This document shows positions 217-10,571 of a stretch of DNA of 64,000 nt, piece by piece (position 1 is the first letter of the stretch; each line of letters begins with the position of its first letter). This stretch comes from Limisphaerales bacterium (GTDB lineage Bacteria; Verrucomicrobiota; Verrucomicrobiia; Limisphaerales; UBA1100), in assembly GCA_014382585.1 (NCBI GenBank), contig JACNJL010000026.1:1-64000 (forward strand), written 5' to 3'. Under the pieces are notes generated by a model. The model was not told the DNA's origin and ran no database searches. It was given only the letters and a program-made list of their open reading frames with translations. Both the position numbers and the translations under genes were made by a program.

Positions 217-905
217 GTTCCTCGTCCTCTTCGACGTTGGATATTTTGGTGCTCTATACCGATGCTGCGGCGCAGGAAAAAGGTGGGGATAACGGAATCA
301 AATCATTGGCTGGTGCGGCTGTTGGAAATGTCAACACGGCCCTTAAGAACAGCGGCGTGAGTGAACGGGCCAAGCTGGTTGCGACTGAAAAATTTGCCCA
401 CACTTCCAACGGAAATCTGGGGTCGGATATCGGCAAAATTGCCAAGGACAGTCAGGTCGCCAGTTGGCGCAATAAACATAAAGCGGATTTAGTGTCCATG
501 CTGGTAAAAAGCTCAAACGGTTCCACTATGGGAATGGGTCATGTGGGGAGTGCGAGTGGCAATAAAGGGGCGGCATTCAGTGTGTGCAAAGTAAAGGCGA
601 TCGGCAGTCCGATCCGATCGTTCGCTCATGAAATTGGGCATAATCTGGGTTGCGCGCACGCCAAAGATCAGGGCTCAGGCGCGGGCAAAGGCGCTTTCGG
701 CTATTCGCATGGTTGGCGGTTTGAAGGTACGGACAAGAAAAAATATCGGACTTTATTGAGTTATCAAAAGAGTGCCGGCGAAGCCCGCCTTCCGTATTAT
801 TCTAATCCTTCAGTGACTTACCAAGGCGCAGCGACAGGAACGTCTGCTGCGGATAACGGCAAAACAATCAAGGCCGTGATCAAAAAAGCCATCCAGTATT
901 ATTAG
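3..905 (+). CDS. Secreted metzincin-type zinc metalloprotease, C-terminal part (5' truncated)
   Basis: The frame is open from the window edge, so the start and any signal peptide lie upstream. The first ~75 visible residues are the Ser-Gly-Gly-Asn linker, then comes a reprolysin-like catalytic domain beginning LDILVLYTDAA. The zinc site HEIGHNLGCAH (about 627-659) fits HExxHxxGxxH with three histidine ligands and a catalytic Glu. Metzincins have a Met-turn downstream; the best candidate here is TLLSYQ, which has Leu where Met is expected. The linker suggests an extracellular or surface enzyme whose N-terminal module is outside the window. The stop TAG (903-905) overlaps the stop of the convergent giant gene (902-904). 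Confidence 0.8.
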   Translation, partial: SGGNSGGNSGGNSGGNSGGNSGGNSGGNSGGNSGGNSGGNSGGNSGGNSGGNSGGNSGGNSGGNSGGSSGGSSSSSSTLDILVLYTDAAAQEKGGDNGIKSLAGAAVGNVNTALKNSGVSERAKLVATEKFAHTSNGNLGSDIGKIAKDSQVASWRNKHKADLVSMLVKSSNGSTMGMGHVGSASGNKGAAFSVCKVKAIGSPIRSFAHEIGHNLGCAHAKDQGSGAGKGAFGYSHGWRFEGTDKKKYRTLLSYQKSAGEARLPYYSNPSVTYQGAATGTSAADNGKTIKAVIKKAIQYY

Positions 906-3900
906 GCGTTTTCTTCCGTTGGCTTGCGCAGGGCGGCGCGGGTGAGTTTCACGAATCCGTATAAGATTGCCAGCGCGAGGAGGAGTGCGCCGAGTGCGAT
1001 CAGCCAATCGGGGTCTTCGGTGTTCACCGCTTCAAACTCAATGGTCATCGGTTCACCGGGTTTCATTTGCAGGCTTTGGGTGAATTGATGCACCGTGCCG
1101 TGGAGGGGAAGGGTGATGTGCAGCGGGGCCACGGTGCGTTCGGTGAGTTCCTGTGATTTTTGCAGCATCTCCACCTGCTCGAGTGCAGCCTCGGCGTTGT
1201 CGCCAGCGTGTTGGGCAATGGATTGCGATTGGCCGGCGGGTTTTTGGTTGGGGAGGTTGGCTTGTAGCGCGTAGCGGGCGGAGTTGCGGTTGTTGAATTC
1301 GAACTGCGACTCATTCAGTTTGAGGGCCTGCAGTTGGCGAACTTGCCGTTCCAATTCTCTCAGTTTTTTCCGGTCTGAATTCGAGTTGGCAGCGTCTTGT
1401 CGGCGGGCTTGGTCGAAGTACCGGTTGGCGTCCTCCACGTTTCCGGCCTTGATGTTGTCGACCGTATTTTTGAGCGTGCTGGAAAACAGTTTTGATTGTT
1501 CTTCCTTTTTCCCTTTTTCATCATTGAGAGTTTTGCTTTCGTAAGCCCGTTGGTCCATATCATTGTTGGGCATGGCCTCGGTTTGTAAAGTGTTGAGGAG
1601 CGTGCTCTGTTGGGCTTGGCGCATTGGGTGCGGGTATTGATTGCGTGGCTTCGAGTGGGTCATTGAGCCTTCGAAGTTGGTGTATTTGTAATCGCGCGGG
1701 AGGTGGAGTTTCCATTGGGCGTCCTGCAGGGGCACGTTGAGGCGGGGGGACTCAAGCTTCACCTGGCCGCTGCCATCGGGGAAGGGCGTGCTGCTTTCGT
1801 AGGTGAACTCCACAGTGAAGGCGGTGTTGTTTTCCGATTGCTCCAGCGGCAACAGGTGCGCGCCCTTTTGCGTGCGCGCGGCGCGCACCGCTTGGCCGGC
1901 CACGAAGGCAGACCACAGCCGGTCGTCGCTGCCGGGTAATTCGAGCGTCATCGTTTGCCCGCCGTTGTTGACCACCTGTAATCTTGCCTGCGTGAGCATC
2001 CGGCCGTCCTGTGTGAGTACGCTGGTGAATCGCGTGGCGGTGATGCTGGTTTGCAACACGGCGGCGGTTTCAAACTGGTTCACCTGCACAGCGAGTTGCC
2101 AGCCGGGCCGCAGGTATTGATACGTTAATGCGGGCGGCGGATCCATCTGCGTGCGCTCGGGCAGGTTGGCCGCGTCCATTGCCGCGAGCGGATCGGCCAC
2201 GGCGGTGGCTTCCTCCACCTGCAACGGTGTGGTGTTGGCCACTTGCACGGTCACCCAGCCGGTCTCGCGTTCCACGGTGGGATCCACCGGTGATTGGCCG
2301 GCGGGCATTTGCGTGCCTTGCACTTGTGGGCCGGTGAAGGTGAATTGATTGGTCTTCGAAAGACTCCAGTCTTTCCATTCCCACGTGAAGGAGAGGTCGT
2401 ACGTGCCCATCGTTTTATTTTGCAAACGCACGATCCAATCCGTGATGACTTCGGGGTCGGTTTGTCTGCTGCGAATATTTTTGCCTTCAAATTCCACATT
2501 CTTGAACTGCTCTGGAACACGAATGCGAAATTCCTGCGTTGGCGCGTTCTTGATGGAATACCGAATCACGGTGCGTCCTTCCAAGTGTGTCTCACTCACT
2601 TTCAAATGATTGACTACCTCGGCCGTGGCCCAAACCGGTCGGCGCGCGGTGTTCACCGTGAGACTCCAGCCCAGCGAATCATCGGGCATCGTGGTGATGT
2701 GTTTGTACGCCAGCACATTGGCGCCGAGCGTGAAGGGCATCGCGCCGAAGGCGTGGCCGGGCGCGTTGGGTTGGCGGCTGGGCAACTCGGCGGCGGGAAT
2801 TTCCGTTAACCCCTGCGCCACGCCGGCGGAGACTTCCAGCCCCGGCTCGCTGCCCACGGCCACAAAGCCGGTGAGTTTGTGTGTGCCCAGCGGATGCACC
2901 CCGGCCACGGGCACCGTGGCGGCCAGTGGAAGTTGTTTTTGCAAATCAATCCGGACGCCGTACGCGCCCATCATGCGCTGGCTGAGGGTGATTTCCAATT
3001 GGCCATCCGCGAGGTTGGTGCGGGCGATGTTTGCGCCGTGGACTTTCTCCACGCGATAGCCTTCGGGTAATGCCAGTGAGAGATTGAAGATTCCGGTTTT
3101 CTTAATGGTATAATTCACGTGGCTGGTGAGTTGCAGCGCGTTGGCGCCCACGTGGAAATGCTGGCGCACTTCCGCCTCGAGGCGCGGCTGTACGGCGGCC
3201 ACTTGCGCGGCCAGCGTAAATGTATTCAGATAGCTAAAGACGTGCATTGGCGCGGTGGCTTTCACCACGGCGGTGAAATCTTCGGTATTCTTTTTGGTGA
3301 GGTTAACCGATTGCGCGACGGTGAGGCCGAGGTCATCGCCGGCTTGGAGGCCGACCAATCCGTTTTCGCGTTTCACATCCAGTGCGTGCGGCACAGTCAC
3401 GGCGGCTTCATTGGGCGGGGCGGCGAGCGGTTGCTCGAGTTCGAGCACGAGCTGCCAGTTTTGGGTGGCCGGCTTGGTGAGGTTCACCACCAGCACGGAG
3501 TCATCGGTGCCATCCCCCATCACCCAGTTGCGGAGATTCGGTGCGGTGACGCGCATCAGCTTGTGGCCGGCCGCGGCGGGGGGCAGTTGCACGCGCACGC
3601 GGTGAAGTTCGCCCTGGGTCACCTGATAATCGAGCTGCGTGCGAGTGCGCACGAGGCCGCGTTGGTACGTCACATGGCTGGCGTTTTGCACAAATACTGT
3701 AGCGGCAATCTCGCGGGCCTTTTGCACGCGGGGTTTCCAGGTGAGGCGTAGCGAATCGTTGGCGCCGATGATGCCCGTGAGGGTGGTGGCATCACCCGCC
3801 GCCTCGGTTTTGGCGGTGACCCCGGTGGGCAATTCCATTTCGGCGTCCTGTTCGTTGAGCGTCGCTACCACGTGGCTGACGAGCGCGGGCGGAATGCCAA

Positions 3901-6900
3901 AGGCAAGCGCGCGTTGGGCGGCGTCGCCGGTGTGTTTGATGAGGAATTTCACTTTGGCCGTGGCTTGGCCGGCGTTGGGGAGCTTGATTTCCAGCGTGGG
4001 CCCGGCGCGGCGAAGTGTGGCACCGGTTTGCGTGCAGCTAAACGAATCGATGGCGAGGTGCTCGCGGAAGAGGGTAAAGGCTTGCGCGTCCGCGCGCGTG
4101 TCGAGCGTGTATTCCGCCTCCACAATGGCCACCTTCGGATGCACGGTCACATTATAAATGGCGGATACCAAACTGACGGTGTTGGTGCCGGCGTTGGCGC
4201 GCACGCCTTTGGCGTCCCACGTATCGAAGGAAAGCTGCCGCCCGCGGTCCCAGCGCACTTCGCGGGCGATCTTGCCGTTGGTGTGCCATTGGCGTGCGAG
4301 ACCGTGTGGCTCGCCTTGGGCCCACGGTGTTTCGGTGGCTTTTTTTCCGTTGGGATGCCACGTGATTTGGTTGCCGTGAAGTTTGCCGGTTTGATAAATC
4401 TGTTGGCCCGACTGCGTGCCGTCGCGTCGCCAACTGGTTTGAGTTCCATGCAGCTTGCCTTTGGCGTACGGGCTGCTCGAGCGTTTGGAGCCGTTCTCGT
4501 GCCATAAGGTTTCCACGCCGTGCAGCTGGCCGTTTTGATAATGGCTTTCGATGCGTTTTTGTTGATTGGCAAATGAACCGGTGACAATACCGGTGAAGGG
4601 TGCGTCCGCATTCACCTCAAAGCGAGTGCCGTTGCGGTCTTGCAATTGCGCTTCTGAGATGCGCTTGGCGCCGGTGGCTTTGGGCGAGAGCAAATCGATG
4701 AGCGTTTGGCGAATTTGTTCCGGCGTGAGCTTGGCTGCGGGCGCGGTCGGTTGAGCGCCGAGCGTGCCTTGGAGGCCGAGGAAAATCGCCAACGCCGCCG
4801 TGGCCGCGGCCCCGCCTGAAGTGCTGCCGCCGGTGCTGCTGTCGTCATCGTTGGAAATTTCTTCCGTCGGTTCCGCCGGTGTGGTTTGGCACGCTTGGCA
4901 CGAGGGCCAGAAGTACCACGTCACCCACGCCAGCACCGCGAGCCCGAGGGTCCAGAGGGTACAGGCAAAAAGTTGGTGGACGGATTGTTCCTGGAAACAA
5001 ATCCAAATCACCGCACCGTACGCCATCGCGATGCCGCCGGTGATAACGAGCGTGTGGCGATTTTCCGGCACTCGGAATTGCCGCCACAGCACCCACAAAC
5101 CGGTGAGCAAAGCGAGCAACTGAAACAGCCCGCGCCGCACTTTGCGTTGACCTGAATCCATCACTTGCGCCTCGATGACCATCGCGTCATCGCCGGTTTC
5201 ACTCGAATGAATGGCTTTGGTAAAATTAAACACGCGGCCATTGGCGGGGATCGTCTGCCGCACACCGCGAATGCCCTGCACCATTGGTGTGCGGGTGGAA
5301 GTATTGCCGGGCCCACGACCGGCGGTAGGGCCTTCGCCTCCCCCGGGAATTCCGCCACCGCCGCCACCCATACCCATACCGCCGGTGCCGCCGGGCAATC
5401 CGGTGGCGGGATCAGCTGTTCCGCTGTTGCCCGGTTTGCTTGGTTGCGCCGGTTTCGGTGCGGGGGATTTGGGTGGGGATGGTTTGCTTGAGGTGGTTTG
5501 GGTGGGGGAATCGTATTTGCCTCCTTCGGCGCGCTCTTCCCCTTCGCTTCCGCCACCGCGTTCACCGGGAGAGTGGGCTTCGTCATCCGCGCCCCAGTTT
5601 TCGTTGGATCCCGTATCCGCATAACCGTCAGCCGTTTTGAAAACTCTGGATGTGCTTCGGGCGACTGTCGGCATCAGGATTGCGCTAACAACGAGCAGCG
5701 CGATCAAGGCGCCCGCGCCGATGAGCAGTGCCTTGCGGCCTTTGCGCAGGGCGAGCTGTAACAGGCCGAAGGCGATGCCGAAAAAGACGAGCAGTCCCAC
5801 CACGGAATCCCAATGCGTGCGGCGCAGCACGCGGTTAAAATCGCGCCATACATTGACCCAGCGATAGGGTTCCGCGCGTTGGGGAACCATGTTGCCGCCG
5901 AAATCGAACAGCTCGTGCGAGGTGGGGTCGAGGTAAACCTGCCAGGCATTGCCGGTGTGAGGGAGGTCCGGCCGCGGCGCTTCGAGGCGGAGGTCCACCG
6001 GCGCGAGGCTGGCGAACGCGCCGCGTTTGCGCACTTCGCCGGAGAGTTCTTCGGTGTACATTATTTCCACATAAAAAGCGTGATTACGGTTGAGGCTCGA
6101 GGGGAGCGGCACCAGCACTTTGCCATCAGCATCGGTGCGGGGCGTGACTGATTCGCCGTCCACACTCGTGTAGGTGAGGTTGGCCTTGGCGGGCAGGGTG
6201 ATGCCCATGAACTGGCGGTTGGTGTTTTTTACCGTGTACGCGGCAAGCGTGATAAGCTGGCCGTCGGGATTGATTTGCGTGCTCAGTAGCGAACGATCCG
6301 CCACGGCGTCGAGCCCTTCTTCGGTCGTGTGCTGATTAATCGCCACGGGTAGTCGCTTGGGTTCGGCGTCATATTTATAGGCAAATAAAATAGAGCGATT
6401 AACCACGCCGCGATCGGCTTCGTCCAGCTCGGCAGCATCGATTTGGCGCAGGCCGGTTTTGGCGGGGTTGGGGGTCAGCTCGATGTTGGAGGCCCCGGTC
6501 AGGGCGAGCGTGCCGGTGACGCGCTCGAGGTGTTGCGGTAATGCCACGCCGAGCGATTGGCTGCCGGCGTTGCTGTCAAACTGATTGTCGTAGCTCACCA
6601 CGAGCGTGTAGCCGTCCCATGCTTTTTCCTGCAGTGTGAGCGTCCAATCCACCGTGGCGCCATCAGCGGCACGGGTCGCTTGGCGAGCGCGGATGTTCGC
6701 TCCGGCGAACTCCACATTTTTCCAGTCATTGGTGCCGGGCACGCGGACGGTGAAGGATTGCACGCCTTGATTCACGATGCCGAATCGAATGGTGGCGCTG
6801 CCGCGCAAGAGGCCGTCGCCGATGGTGGCGAGGTTGAAGACTTCGGCGGTGACGATGGCTTCAAGGCGTTCGGCGGAAAAGGTGACTGACCAATCCGGTT

Positions 6901-8407
6901 GGGTGGCAGTGAAGGCGAGGGCTTCGGCGGCGCCGGCGGCGATTTCGCGCGCGGACCGCAACGCACCGCCCGAGAGCCGCAACCCCGCCGAGGCGCGCGC
7001 GGTGATGCGGGCGGTTTGGCGGTCCAACGCGAAAGGTTCCTTTGCGCGCGCGGCGACATTGAGTGGCAGCAAGGTAAAGTTCGCCTGCGATTTGTCGGCG
7101 GGTTTTTCCAGCTCTACTGTGACCAGGCGGTTGCCCAGCACGCGGCTTTGGTATTGCAGCGTGATGAGGCCGGTGGCGGGGTCGAGCTTCCAATCAGTAA
7201 GGCCGGTGCCGGTGACGTTTGCCACGGTGAATTTATTGGTGCCGGTGAGTACGGCGGCATTGCCAAGGGTGAGCGAATAAATGCCGGCCTTGGTGACGTT
7301 AAGCGACACGCGGTGGTAGGCGCGCAGACGGGTTTCGGAAAGATGGGCGTCCACCGCACTGTGTGCGCCCACGGAGGGTTCGATGCGTTTGGTGGTGACC
7401 GGGAGCGCAAAGGGCGTGCGGCCAAAGAACCGCCACGCACCGATTTGGCCGGCGGCAGCGTTGACTTTGCGAAGGCCTTGGATGGTGCCGGTTTCCACGG
7501 TCACATCCTCGGCGGTGAGTTGGAGATTACCGCTCTCGCGTTCCACGCCCATCGGCGCGGGCGGGGTGAGGCCGGCGGCGGCGGCGGCGAGTGGCTGCTC
7601 GGATAGGAGGGTGAGCGCGTAAGTTTTTTCAGCGGGCTGGACAAAATCAATGTTCAACGTGCCGTCGGTCACGGCCCAGTTTTTGATATTTTTACCGTCA
7701 ACTTTGGTGATCGATTGGCCGGCGGGCAGGGCGACGGTGAGGTTGGTGGGTTTGCCTTGGAGGATGTCGTAGTTGAACCGCGTGGTGAATTTGGCAACGG
7801 TCGGGTTGAGGTGAATGGTCGCGGCGGTTTGGGTGGTCAATAAAACGCGCCGTACTTGCTCGGTTACTTTGGTTTGCCAACGCAGCGAAACCTTGCGGTC
7901 CGCGCCCAGCGCGCCGCGCACGGCGGCTTTGTTTCCCGTGCGCGGGAGGGGTGTGCCGGAGAGGAGCTCGAGTTCCTGTCCGTTGCCGGCGACGGCGGCG
8001 GTGAGTGCGGCGATGGTGGCGGGCGGGCCGGTGAAATCGATTTGCCGCAGCGGATCTTTTTTGGTGATGCGCGGCAGGAGGCTGAGGGAGAGATTATATT
8101 GGCCGGGCTTCTCGACGATGAGCTGGTAGCCATCTTGAATTCGCCCGAGGCGCAGGCCGGAGGGGAGTTTGGGATCGATGATGGCCAGCTCGCCCTGGAA
8201 CAGTGTGAGCGCGGTGGCGACGGTGTTGGTGCTTTCTATCTTAAGCGCGGCGGTGAAGCTGGCGGCGTCGTCGGTAAGCTGGCCGGTGTAGCGGATTTCG
8301 TGAACGATCACCGGGCCGGTCTTGGGAGGCGTGGGCGGCGCGACGGCGGCGTGCAAACTATTGAGGGTGAAAAAGAGAGCGGGGATGAGGGCGAAGATTG
8401 TTTTCAT
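902..8407 (-). CDS. Giant (2501 aa) secreted/membrane protein with duplicated halves and MORN-like insert
   Basis: No named family recognised. A signal peptide (MKTIFALIPALFFTLNSLHA) is followed by a beta-rich region (about 20-850), hydrophobic segments near 870-925, a Gly/Pro/Ser linker (930-1045), further hydrophobic segments (1090-1220), four to five MORN/YwqK-like repeats of the form NGxLHGxxxxWHxNG (about 1275-1400), a second beta-rich region (1410-2250), a charged probable coiled coil (2310-2380) and a last membrane span (about 2466-2490) with a short basic tail. The two beta-rich halves are homologous: VKNTNRQFMGITLPA matches VVNNGGQTMTLELPG, and KNVEFAGANIRARQ matches KNVEFEGKNIRSRQ, in the same order. 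This suggests an envelope-spanning or surface protein. It is transcribed divergently from the sigma factor gene. ATG start at 8407; no frameshift seen. Confidence 0.85.
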   Translation of the reverse strand: MKTIFALIPALFFTLNSLHAAVAPPTPPKTGPVIVHEIRYTGQLTDDAASFTAALKIESTNTVATALTLFQGELAIIDPKLPSGLRLGRIQDGYQLIVEKPGQYNLSLSLLPRITKKDPLRQIDFTGPPATIAALTAAVAGNGQELELLSGTPLPRTGNKAAVRGALGADRKVSLRWQTKVTEQVRRVLLTTQTAATIHLNPTVAKFTTRFNYDILQGKPTNLTVALPAGQSITKVDGKNIKNWAVTDGTLNIDFVQPAEKTYALTLLSEQPLAAAAAGLTPPAPMGVERESGNLQLTAEDVTVETGTIQGLRKVNAAAGQIGAWRFFGRTPFALPVTTKRIEPSVGAHSAVDAHLSETRLRAYHRVSLNVTKAGIYSLTLGNAAVLTGTNKFTVANVTGTGLTDWKLDPATGLITLQYQSRVLGNRLVTVELEKPADKSQANFTLLPLNVAARAKEPFALDRQTARITARASAGLRLSGGALRSAREIAAGAAEALAFTATQPDWSVTFSAERLEAIVTAEVFNLATIGDGLLRGSATIRFGIVNQGVQSFTVRVPGTNDWKNVEFAGANIRARQATRAADGATVDWTLTLQEKAWDGYTLVVSYDNQFDSNAGSQSLGVALPQHLERVTGTLALTGASNIELTPNPAKTGLRQIDAAELDEADRGVVNRSILFAYKYDAEPKRLPVAINQHTTEEGLDAVADRSLLSTQINPDGQLITLAAYTVKNTNRQFMGITLPAKANLTYTSVDGESVTPRTDADGKVLVPLPSSLNRNHAFYVEIMYTEELSGEVRKRGAFASLAPVDLRLEAPRPDLPHTGNAWQVYLDPTSHELFDFGGNMVPQRAEPYRWVNVWRDFNRVLRRTHWDSVVGLLVFFGIAFGLLQLALRKGRKALLIGAGALIALLVVSAILMPTVARSTSRVFKTADGYADTGSNENWGADDEAHSPGERGGGSEGEERAEGGKYDSPTQTTSSKPSPPKSPAPKPAQPSKPGNSGTADPATGLPGGTGGMGMGGGGGGIPGGGEGPTAGRGPGNTSTRTPMVQGIRGVRQTIPANGRVFNFTKAIHSSETGDDAMVIEAQVMDSGQRKVRRGLFQLLALLTGLWVLWRQFRVPENRHTLVITGGIAMAYGAVIWICFQEQSVHQLFACTLWTLGLAVLAWVTWYFWPSCQACQTTPAEPTEEISNDDDSSTGGSTSGGAAATAALAIFLGLQGTLGAQPTAPAAKLTPEQIRQTLIDLLSPKATGAKRISEAQLQDRNGTRFEVNADAPFTGIVTGSFANQQKRIESHYQNGQLHGVETLWHENGSKRSSSPYAKGKLHGTQTSWRRDGTQSGQQIYQTGKLHGNQITWHPNGKKATETPWAQGEPHGLARQWHTNGKIAREVRWDRGRQLSFDTWDAKGVRANAGTNTVSLVSAIYNVTVHPKVAIVEAEYTLDTRADAQAFTLFREHLAIDSFSCTQTGATLRRAGPTLEIKLPNAGQATAKVKFLIKHTGDAAQRALAFGIPPALVSHVVATLNEQDAEMELPTGVTAKTEAAGDATTLTGIIGANDSLRLTWKPRVQKAREIAATVFVQNASHVTYQRGLVRTRTQLDYQVTQGELHRVRVQLPPAAAGHKLMRVTAPNLRNWVMGDGTDDSVLVVNLTKPATQNWQLVLELEQPLAAPPNEAAVTVPHALDVKRENGLVGLQAGDDLGLTVAQSVNLTKKNTEDFTAVVKATAPMHVFSYLNTFTLAAQVAAVQPRLEAEVRQHFHVGANALQLTSHVNYTIKKTGIFNLSLALPEGYRVEKVHGANIARTNLADGQLEITLSQRMMGAYGVRIDLQKQLPLAATVPVAGVHPLGTHKLTGFVAVGSEPGLEVSAGVAQGLTEIPAAELPSRQPNAPGHAFGAMPFTLGANVLAYKHITTMPDDSLGWSLTVNTARRPVWATAEVVNHLKVSETHLEGRTVIRYSIKNAPTQEFRIRVPEQFKNVEFEGKNIRSRQTDPEVITDWIVRLQNKTMGTYDLSFTWEWKDWSLSKTNQFTFTGPQVQGTQMPAGQSPVDPTVERETGWVTVQVANTTPLQVEEATAVADPLAAMDAANLPERTQMDPPPALTYQYLRPGWQLAVQVNQFETAAVLQTSITATRFTSVLTQDGRMLTQARLQVVNNGGQTMTLELPGSDDRLWSAFVAGQAVRAARTQKGAHLLPLEQSENNTAFTVEFTYESSTPFPDGSGQVKLESPRLNVPLQDAQWKLHLPRDYKYTNFEGSMTHSKPRNQYPHPMRQAQQSTLLNTLQTEAMPNNDMDQRAYESKTLNDEKGKKEEQSKLFSSTLKNTVDNIKAGNVEDANRYFDQARRQDAANSNSDRKKLRELERQVRQLQALKLNESQFEFNNRNSARYALQANLPNQKPAGQSQSIAQHAGDNAEAALEQVEMLQKSQELTERTVAPLHITLPLHGTVHQFTQSLQMKPGEPMTIEFEAVNTEDPDWLIALGALLLALAILYGFVKLTRAALRKPTEENA

Positions 8408-8581
8408 TGCAATAAAAGGGCTTGGCCGATTCTGTCATATTCGCGGATCGATACCAGCGAAAAGCCACGGGTTGACAAATATGACACTTAATGGACGGGA
8501 GCAACGAGCCGTTTCCTCCCGTCAATCCATTGCCGTAATACGCGCTGGCAAGATGCACGAAATCGCGCTACCTTAACCGGA
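8408..8581. promoter_or_regulatory. Divergent control region with two inverted repeats
   Basis: This 174-bp gap separates the giant gene from the sigma factor gene. TGTCATATT (8433-8441) and AATATGACA (8478-8486) form a perfect 9-bp inverted repeat, with arm centres about 45 bp apart. A TTGACA (8472-8477) abuts the right arm, but no good -10 box follows at 16-18 bp. A second inverted repeat, GACGGGAG (8494-8501) and CTCCCGTC (8516-8523), would fold as an 8-bp hairpin in the sigma factor leader. The placement suits an operator shared by both genes. This is inference from symmetry only. Confidence 0.5.
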
Positions 8582-9208
8582 ATGGATCTGGACGCCGAAC
8601 GCGAGATGATCCAACGCTGTCGTGACGGAGAAGACGACGCGTGGGAAGAACTCTTTGCCGAGCATTACGCGGCGGTGGGGCGTTTTGTGTTCCAACTCGC
8701 CTCGGATCTCTCGCGCGAGGATACCGATGAAGTGTGCCAGGAAGTCTTTCTTTCGGTTGTAAAAAACCTCAAAGGCTTCAGCGGACGCAGCCGGTTGCAA
8801 ACCTGGCTCTTTCGCATCGCCGCCAACAAGAGCCGCGATTACCGCGCCAAGCTCCACGCCGCCAAACGCGGTGGCGGGCAAGTGCCGCTCTCGTTGCAGG
8901 CGGAAGATGACGAAGGCAACCGCCTGTTGGACCCTCCCAGCCCGTTGCCTTCGCCCGATGAGGAAATGACCCGCGACGAGAAATGGCATCTTGTCGGCCA
9001 AGGGCTCGAAGAGCTGGGCGGGCCGTGCCAGCAAATTTTGGAGCTCCGCTATTTTGGCGATTTGAACTACCGCGAAATCAGCGAAGAACTCGATTTAAAC
9101 GAAAAAACCGTCAGTTCCCGGCTCAGTAAATGCAGGGATAAACTAGAGAACGTGATGCGTCAGCTATTTTCCAGGGAGAAAACCGGCGCAATCCCGTCTA
9201 AAAAGTAG
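8582..9208 (+). CDS. RNA polymerase sigma-70 factor, ECF subfamily
   Basis: At 208 residues this has the two-domain ECF layout. Region 2 is about residues 15-95, with the DxxQExFLxV-type segment (DEVCQEVFLSVVKNL) and the -10-recognition segment LQTWLFRIAANKSRDY. Region 4 is about 140-195 with a helix-turn-helix in LNYREISEELDLNEKTVSSR. There is an acidic linker between them. ECF factors redirect RNA polymerase to a small regulon and are usually held by an anti-sigma factor encoded next door; the following gene, 7 bp away, encodes a one-span membrane protein in that position. The start ATG has no strong Shine-Dalgarno sequence. Confidence 0.93.
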   Translation: MDLDAEREMIQRCRDGEDDAWEELFAEHYAAVGRFVFQLASDLSREDTDEVCQEVFLSVVKNLKGFSGRSRLQTWLFRIAANKSRDYRAKLHAAKRGGGQVPLSLQAEDDEGNRLLDPPSPLPSPDEEMTRDEKWHLVGQGLEELGGPCQQILELRYFGDLNYREISEELDLNEKTVSSRLSKCRDKLENVMRQLFSREKTGAIPSKK

Positions 9209-9215
9209 GCAGAAT

Positions 9216-10571
9216 ATGTCTGAACAAGAAAACAGCAAGATGGAAGCATGGCTGAAAGCCTACCGGCAACAGCGGCGCGACCAATGGAACGAAGACCCCG
9301 TGGAATTCGATGAGCCCACCCGCGCTATGTTAATGGCCGAAGTGCGCCGGCAGAATTCGACGGGCTCCGCCACCCCGAAAATCTCCGCCGAACCCGCCGA
9401 ACCCGCCGCACCCTCGCACGGCTGGATGCGCTGGGCCCTTGGCGGGATGACCGCCGCTATCGTAGTGCTCGGCGTTTCGTCCCTTTCGCAATTTCAATCC
9501 GAGTCAGATTCAATGGCTCAAGCCAACCCCGGTTCACCTGAATCCAATTCTCAAATAAAAGCGGGCACCGCTGATGCCTCGCTCGATGACCTGAACCGCG
9601 ATGCGGCTCATGCTACCGACGAGTCCAAAACGGCGAGCGGGGGTTTGGGCGGAATGAGCAGAGGAATGGCTGCCAAAGGTTCCGTGCCCGGCTCACCCGG
9701 CAATACCGTCACCGTGCAAGCCGTGCCTTCGCAACCATTAATCGCTCCCAATCAACCCGCACCACGGCCCACGCCGGTACGAAATATGCCTTCGCGCCAA
9801 AACATAGCGATGGAAAATGGCAACTACTACAATCACGCCCGCGAGATGCAGCTGAACTTCGCACAGCAATCCCGCGCCCGCAGCGGTCCCGGAGTTTCCG
9901 CAATGCGGACGGTCAAGAATAAGGAATTGCCCAAACCCGTGCTCGTGAATTTCGAACTTAAGCGCGTCGGCAACACCATCCGCGTAGTCGATGGCGACGG
10001 CTCGATTTATTCCGGTAACGTCATCAATGAAGAAGCTATGCCCGAAGCCGAGGAACGTAAATTATTGGCCGAGCCCGGCGAAGGGGGTGGAGGTGGTGGT
10101 ATTGCTGGCGGCGGCGCCTATCACGCGAATGTAGCGGCTAACCCGGCCCGAGCAAAAACACGGCAGAGTAGTCAGGCGTTTTTCCGCGTGCAAGGCACCA
10201 ACAAAACGCTCCAGCAACTGGTTATCTTCGAAGCGACGCTGGACAATTCTGTGCTTGGCAAAAAAGATGGCACGCTGAACCCACGCGTGGTCGCTCATCC
10301 TCAATCCCTCGCGCGGCCGAGTGCTGCAGGAGCCGGACAGGCTCCACCACTCAGCGTACCAAGTGTTGCCGCATTACCCGAAGGGGGTCCAAATAATTTT
10401 GCCGGAAAGGCGCCAAAGAATTTAAACGGAAATATGGGAGCCATCCGTGCCATCGCCCGCATGCGCGTGCTTGGTAACGCACGGATTGGCAAAGACAATT
10501 TTCCGGTCGATGCTTATCTCGATACCAAGGCCGCCGGCAAAGCGCCTGCGGATGAGATTAAGAAAAAGTAG
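9216..10571 (+). CDS. Single-span membrane protein, putative ECF partner/anti-sigma
   Basis: 451 residues. The N-terminal ~70 residues are cytosolic, charged and helical (MEAWLKAYRQQRRDQW...), then one membrane span lies at about 71-92 (WMRWALGGMTAAIVVLGVSS). The long periplasmic part is low-complexity (Ala/Pro/Asn/Gln) to about 235, then a small compact stretch around LVNFELKRVGNTIRVVDGDG and a final conserved-looking segment near 400-445. No zinc-binding HxxxCxxC anti-sigma motif is visible, so the anti-sigma role is inferred only from topology and the 7-bp spacing to the sigma gene. It could instead be a structural envelope protein. Confidence 0.6.
   Translation: MSEQENSKMEAWLKAYRQQRRDQWNEDPVEFDEPTRAMLMAEVRRQNSTGSATPKISAEPAEPAAPSHGWMRWALGGMTAAIVVLGVSSLSQFQSESDSMAQANPGSPESNSQIKAGTADASLDDLNRDAAHATDESKTASGGLGGMSRGMAAKGSVPGSPGNTVTVQAVPSQPLIAPNQPAPRPTPVRNMPSRQNIAMENGNYYNHAREMQLNFAQQSRARSGPGVSAMRTVKNKELPKPVLVNFELKRVGNTIRVVDGDGSIYSGNVINEEAMPEAEERKLLAEPGEGGGGGGIAGGGAYHANVAANPARAKTRQSSQAFFRVQGTNKTLQQLVIFEATLDNSVLGKKDGTLNPRVVAHPQSLARPSAAGAGQAPPLSVPSVAALPEGGPNNFAGKAPKNLNGNMGAIRAIARMRVLGNARIGKDNFPVDAYLDTKAAGKAPADEIKKK

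Follow-up and report, generated by a model that had tools for sequence, protein, structure and literature searches.

We analysed a 64,000-nucleotide stretch of DNA (the window; positions 1 to 64,000 of the forward strand of contig JACNJL010000026.1) from a Limisphaerales bacterium of the phylum Verrucomicrobiota, focusing on a giant gene (902..8407, - strand, as are all of its features below) whose intact open reading frame (ORF), stop codon included, encodes 2501 amino acids (aa). The evidence supports an arm protein that is anchored in the membrane, was doubled long ago and belongs with an extracytoplasmic function (ECF) sigma factor module, and the giant is probably a conserved, unnamed sensor or strut of the cell envelope. 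With a probability of roughly 0.5, we read it as the large structural part, and probably the sensor, of an envelope module that is specific to the Verrucomicrobiota and controlled by an ECF sigma factor. The gene has matches in 32 of 58 near genomes, where full-length relatives measure 2130-2780 aa. The ratio of nonsynonymous to synonymous substitution rates (dN/dS) is 0.12-0.16 against three congeners, all of which keep the ORF intact, and every part of the gene is under purifying selection.

The two halves of the protein are copies of one another. An earlier note on this DNA had proposed the internal doubling of a beta-rich unit from three pairs of segments that occur in order and at near-constant offset, and both observations hold. 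Residues 20-900 and 1390-2280 are collinear (blastp E 4.7e-58, 27% identity over 856 columns), their Smith-Waterman score is 575 (mean 48, standard deviation (sd) 6.5 and maximum 73 in 200 shuffles), and a profile-profile comparison with 25 orthologues on each side gives a probability of 100 and E 1e-108 over 793 columns. The three anchor pairs (181/1561, 563/1969 and 722/2141, with offsets of 1380, 1406 and 1419) lie on this same alignment. The doubled unit had been put at ~850 residues, which is too small, because the stalk and last membrane helix were duplicated as well. The C-terminal stalk motif recurs at residues 1045-1089 (5141..5275) and 2425-2469 (1001..1135), with the consensus IRSIRIEIPRTGQ..FTKVLN in unit 1 and QPLRVNLPTRG..FTQVLQ in unit 2. 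The profile score between the two is 42.9, compared with a mean of 10.9 (sd 2.1, maximum 21.5) in 1000 column shuffles; a hairpin comparison using hhalign on short windows returned no match. As judged from these alignments, the repeated unit is an arm, a variable segment, a stalk and a membrane helix, about 1,070 aa in all. Within the arms, the best match of each domain is its same-numbered partner (N1-C1 1.7e-18, N2-C2 1e-28, N3-C3 1.3e-19, N4-C4 6.5e-45, N5-C5 1e-37), and domains 2, 3 and 4 also match one another (E 5e-5 to 3e-16) while domains 1 and 5 do not. From this pattern, domain repetition came first and arm doubling second.

Although the earlier note treated the doubling as an event of this gene, the phylogeny points to an old change common to relatives across the Verrucomicrobiota. 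In the tree, the N arms of Limisphaerales-type genomes group apart from the C arms with full support, and the same holds for the other two-arm genomes; the duplication therefore predates each of these two sets. The approximately unbiased (AU) test rejects neither a single old duplication nor separate ones within the Limisphaerales-type clade and outside it (p 0.57 and 0.53). Family matches occur in 62 of 289 genomes across the phylum, relatives with both halves are found throughout it, as the earlier note had invited us to look for, and the labels of the 66 named loci that carry the family are almost all Verrucomicrobia and kin. Many relatives carry an extra domain at the N-terminus, where others have one more domain of the arm type, and in a few lineages (e.g. 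L080, L082-L085) three units are spread over two or three adjacent genes, with an STN domain on one second gene of these split versions. Individual loci depart from the usual form in other ways. One N arm (L148:10001-13171) is ~230 residues longer than usual, which indicates an insertion within the arm, and at L114, L118, L139 and L147 a stop or frameshift divides the giant gene into two ORFs (pseudogene or assembly error). The family also turns up on six contigs (L095, L098, L105, L108, L109 and L151) filed under Akkermansia muciniphila, Methylacidimicrobium, Klebsiella pneumoniae or Proteobacteria, which are apparently metagenome bins with wrong labels.

In AlphaFold models built for each half from the relatives' alignments, both arms have five beta-sandwich domains in the same order, in agreement with the expectation that the halves are beta-rich. 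The unit 1 arm spans residues 30-860 (5828..8320; predicted local distance difference test score, pLDDT, 85.4), with domains at approximately residues 30-185, 186-342, 343-506, 507-669 and 670-794, and the unit 2 arm spans residues 1405-2275 (1583..4195; pLDDT 78.1) and is followed by coiled-coil helices at residues 2285-2426 (1130..1555; helices 881-1022 of the model). The best Foldseek matches in the PDB for both halves are ribophorin I/Ost1 (E 5.8e-9 and 1.1e-9) and then integrin alpha chains, with M1 aminopeptidases also among the matches of the C half. The M1 N-terminal saddle superposes domain by domain (Z 12-13, root-mean-square deviation (rmsd) 3.1-3.3, ~150 residues), for instance on unit 1 domain 2 (Z ~12, rmsd 3.1 over 147 residues) and, in the case of the aminopeptidase N saddle, on unit 2 domain 1 (Z 13, rmsd 3.2 over 152). 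Scores to Ost1 and M1 N-domains reach Z 12-14, and the rmsd rises to 17-20 over two Ost1 domains, so that the match is per domain.

Sequence searches did not recover these folds. Neither Ribophorin I (Ost1) nor Peptidase_M1_N appears in hmmscan searches of 56 N halves at E up to 0.1, which gave no confident Pfam family match of any kind, and PDB profile searches with the N and C halves returned no Ost1 or M1 chain. More generally, no PDB sequence, Pfam or NCBIfam model covers the arms, and the statement in the earlier note that the whole layout belongs to no named family stands after Pfam, NCBIfam and PDB searches. Linker hits to PDB sequences (Tic35 among others) and a Pfam match to Sporozoite_P67 were rejected because they fall in low-complexity sequence. 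On the modelled structures, the likeness of the arms to ribophorin and M1-N is one of fold only. In alignments of the relatives, neither arm has an invariant His, Cys or Ser, and HExxH is found in 1 of 87 giants and is absent from the window protein; an enzyme is therefore unlikely. A GAMEN-like motif occurs in 0 of the 87. The integrin-like leg similarity could instead suggest a surface adhesin or a binding protein for polysaccharide or prey, as could the galactose-binding-like appearance of the extra N-terminal domain of many relatives. However, the integrin matches have TM-scores under 0.2, that N-terminal domain has no confident Pfam match, and the protein has seven predicted membrane helices besides its signal peptide with no recognised outer-membrane anchor, all of which make an adhesin very improbable.

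A topology predicted from hydropathy and positive-inside charges places the protein in the inner membrane and its two arms in the periplasm. A signal peptide (residues 1-23, 8339..8407) would lead into periplasmic arm 1, followed by two membrane helices (residues 868-888 and 890-919, 5651..5806), a periplasmic Gly/Pro-rich linker (residues 920-1044, 5276..5650) with the unit 1 stalk, and three further helices (residues 1093-1112, 1118-1138 and 1143-1166, within 1093-1166, 4910..5131; hydropathy and alignment). An acidic cytosolic linker then precedes a signal-peptide-like helix (residues 1200-1220, 4748..4810) that is aligned just ahead of unit 2 and kept in relatives. This helix would return the chain to the periplasm for the MORN insert, arm 2, the coiled coil and the unit 2 stalk, before the C-terminal membrane helix (residues 2465-2490, 938..1015; hydropathy and AlphaFold model). 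If two secreted, membrane-anchored proteins were joined, their arms would be expected on the same side, as this topology has them. The surface machine considered possible in the earlier note gains no support as such from this prediction.

The segment between the copies contains the hydrophobic stretches, Gly/Pro linker and MORN-like repeats that had been described there, but the protein was not built around the MORN-like repeats. The MORN_2/YwqK-type insert (residues 1249-1400, 4208..4663) has four clear repeats at residues 1293-1381 and matches Pfam MORN_2 with E 4e-7, just above the curated cut-off. Only the window's genus and a few neighbouring ones have it and most relatives do not, a distribution that marks it as a late, lineage-specific insert. 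MORN_2 stretches are numerous elsewhere in the same genome (best E 4.5e-22). The insert is as constrained as the arms (dN/dS 0.07-0.11), and the Gly/Pro linker is looser (0.34-0.44). In most Limisphaerales-type relatives the second of the two helices, with which the window's helix aligns, runs on into a pseudopilin-like head between the copies, with matches to DUF1559 (E 1.7e-8), GspG (E 2.4e-6), PilA (E 1.4e-5) and H-X9-DG (E 1.2e-4). The window lineage has kept the helix, has the Gly/Pro linker where the head would be, and has gained the MORN_2/YwqK domain. Pilin models match the relatives only, and the window giant has no prepilin signature.

Control of the giant gene by an ECF sigma factor, which falls beyond the coordinates covered by the earlier note, is well supported by motif evidence. 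An ECF-type promoter site, GGGAG-N17-CCGTC, faces the giant gene (8494..8520, -), and a mirror site faces a divergent ECF sigma gene (8497..8523, +). Together they form a palindrome that could serve both genes. The spacing and CGTC-like -10 element resemble those of ECF promoters. Across 103 loci, [GA]GGAG-N16/17-CCGTC[TC] is present on the giant's strand between -700 and +60 in 33, where about 0.4 are expected from a first-order Markov model (4.8 per Mb). The pattern was set by eye on 18 of the loci, for which the count is not independent; more than a dozen loci outside these 18 also have it, which constitutes a fair test. By layout, it accompanies 21 of 23 divergent-ECF loci and 13 others, ten of the latter with no ECF gene in several kb upstream. 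These observations lead us to infer that transcription of the giant gene depends on the neighbouring sigma factor. We claim no wider regulon, as a search of the window's own genome found 7 sites versus 15 in a reversed control. The sequence 'AATATGACA', which is present on both flanks of the intergenic region, was set aside because it is not conserved in wider relatives.

The divergent sigma factor (8582..9208, +; 208 aa) matches Pfam PF07638 (E 4.3e-14) and TIGR02937 (E 2.5e-28), and is the best of five PF07638 matches in the window genome. It is followed by a conserved second divergent gene (9216..10571, +) for a 451-aa membrane partner, c2 (P0002), with a predicted layout of a short cytosolic N-terminus, one helix and a periplasmic part. 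This divergent pair of an ECF sigma gene and a c2 of roughly 450 aa is one of two recurring layouts; the other is an operon of an ECF sigma gene, a von Willebrand factor A (vWA) protein (vWF_A + VWA + YfbK_C) and the giant. Where 2.5 kb or more of upstream sequence is available (80 loci), an ECF gene lies within 5 kb upstream in 36, a vWA/YfbK partner is present in 21 and c2 in 18. The window genome has no YfbK_C protein and no second c2. The vWA partners begin with regions of anti-sigma type: several of 18 match NCBIfam anti-sigma models (up to E 4.5e-10), and at L089 zf-HC2 passes the Pfam cut-off in each of the two vWA genes. At other loci, vWA proteins with zf-HC2 or anti-sigma models take the slot of c2. 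The c2 model also finds a match in one vWA partner (residues 65-160, E 5e-9), and the matching region takes in the pilin-like helix. A pilin-like block is common to the giant (34 of 41 relatives aligned) and to c2 (E about 1e-38, about ten members).

Several other features were seen at these loci. In 7 of 17 operons of the vWA layout (L053, L057, L059, L061, L072, L073 and L088), CTAA[TG].A-N13-GTGTC lies near the ECF gene, with no other match in those loci (302 kb). An Amuc_1098-type type IV pilus outer-membrane family matches 6 of 18 vWA partners, including L075:2117-5617 (best E 2.3e-139); at least one of these matches falls below the curated cut-off. In the window, a gene for a reprolysin-like metalloprotease converges on the giant gene, and a 12-base tandem repeat at 1-199 (16.6 copies, 96% match) encodes its Gly/Asn/Ser-rich linker. 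The protease adjoins the giant in ~10 loci of close relatives.

The pilin-related matches raise the question of whether the giant is an accessory of a type IV pilus or a type II secretion-like machine, with its pilin-like segment packing with pseudopilins and its arms guiding a fibre or holding a secretin. Such a role would fit the DUF1559, GspG, PilA and H-X9-DG matches that relatives show between their two copies, the STN domain in one split form and the Amuc_1098-type match in 6 of the 18 vWA partners. We nevertheless regard this role as improbable, given that the recurring neighbours include no recognised pilus or secretion gene, that the window gene lacks the pilin head, and that the prepilin-like FT[LI][IVL]E signature occurs in only three of 87 giants, clearly in the middle block in one.

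A stronger contender, and the chief rival to a sensing component, is that the giant does not signal at all and is simply made under ECF control, as a passive strut or scaffold in the periplasm that keeps the envelope stiff or spaced. Long tandem beta arms, a coiled coil and the lack of catalytic residues suit a strut, as does the promoter kept at about a dozen loci where no ECF gene was found close by. On the other hand, a passive output would not readily account for the long-kept linkage, as an operon or a divergent pair, to genes for sigma and anti-sigma-like proteins, nor for a module common to the giant and its partner, and we consider it somewhat unlikely. We favour an ECF-controlled, periplasm-spanning receptor or scaffold, in which the receptor role would be the more conjectural part. 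A number of observations weigh against this preference. The sensing step draws on gene neighbourhood and shared modules; where the flank is long enough, roughly one locus in two has no nearby ECF gene, so that the partnership is not universal there; the window c2 matches no anti-sigma family; the window gene is without the pilin-like head; and the models have predicted template modelling (pTM) scores of 0.41-0.50, so that they do not fix the arrangement of domains along the arm.

A possible mechanism for a sensing component can be outlined. Two membrane-anchored arms, each of five ribophorin/M1-N-like domains, would lie in the periplasm and be joined by a bundle of membrane helices. The neighbouring ECF sigma factor would use the GGGAG-N17-CCGTC promoter, with c2 as its putative anti-sigma factor, and the giant might touch c2 through pilin-like or derived membrane helices, while the MORN insert and coiled coil could offer extra contact surfaces. 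The state of the envelope (load, spacing or bound ligand) would then be fed back by the giant to sigma release. In its full form, the proposal is that a pilin-type membrane module present in both proteins holds the two-armed periplasmic sensor to its anti-sigma partner, and that the sensor gauges the envelope and tunes its own synthesis via a palindromic two-way ECF promoter. This version is doubtful and we offer it tentatively; if true, it would represent a new kind of ECF signalling.

Within a major phylum of which little has been cultured, the giant is one of the larger conserved proteins, and it has had no family model and no assigned role so far. The promoter motif, recurring partners and domain map turn a 'hypothetical protein' into a testable envelope-control module. 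Chains of ribophorin-like domains in bacteria, as well as the same pilin-like module in the giant and its putative regulator, would interest specialists. We found no paper combining ECF sigma, Verrucomicrobia, von Willebrand and anti-sigma; most subscription papers lay outside the search, and an earlier description is possible.

Comparison with known systems helps to place each part of the protein. Ribophorin I/Ost1 of oligosaccharyltransferase (6s7o_E, 8agb_E) likewise carries M1-N-like beta-sandwich domains in tandem on the side of the membrane away from the cytosol and ends in a membrane helix, whereas the giant has five domains per arm and two arms, with about 10% identity and no sequence-profile match. 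The arm domains share the N-terminal saddle fold of M1 aminopeptidases, but the giant is without the catalytic domain. Most Limisphaerales-type relatives resemble DUF1559/GspG-type pseudopilins in having a pilin-like helix and an H-X9-DG-like head; in the giant, however, this module sits mid-way in a polytopic protein, and the head is absent from the window gene. Likeness to YwqK/MORN_2 proteins is confined to residues 1249-1400, a late insert in few genera rather than part of the giant's core. The closest parallel for the locus as a whole is with modules of an ECF sigma factor and a transmembrane anti-sigma factor, with which it shares an ECF gene, an anti-sigma-like membrane partner and an ECF-like promoter. 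It differs from them in the giant as third partner, in the vWA/YfbK fusion or c2 as partner, and in the pilin-like module common to the partners, and we view it as an ECF sigma/anti-sigma system with an undescribed giant component.

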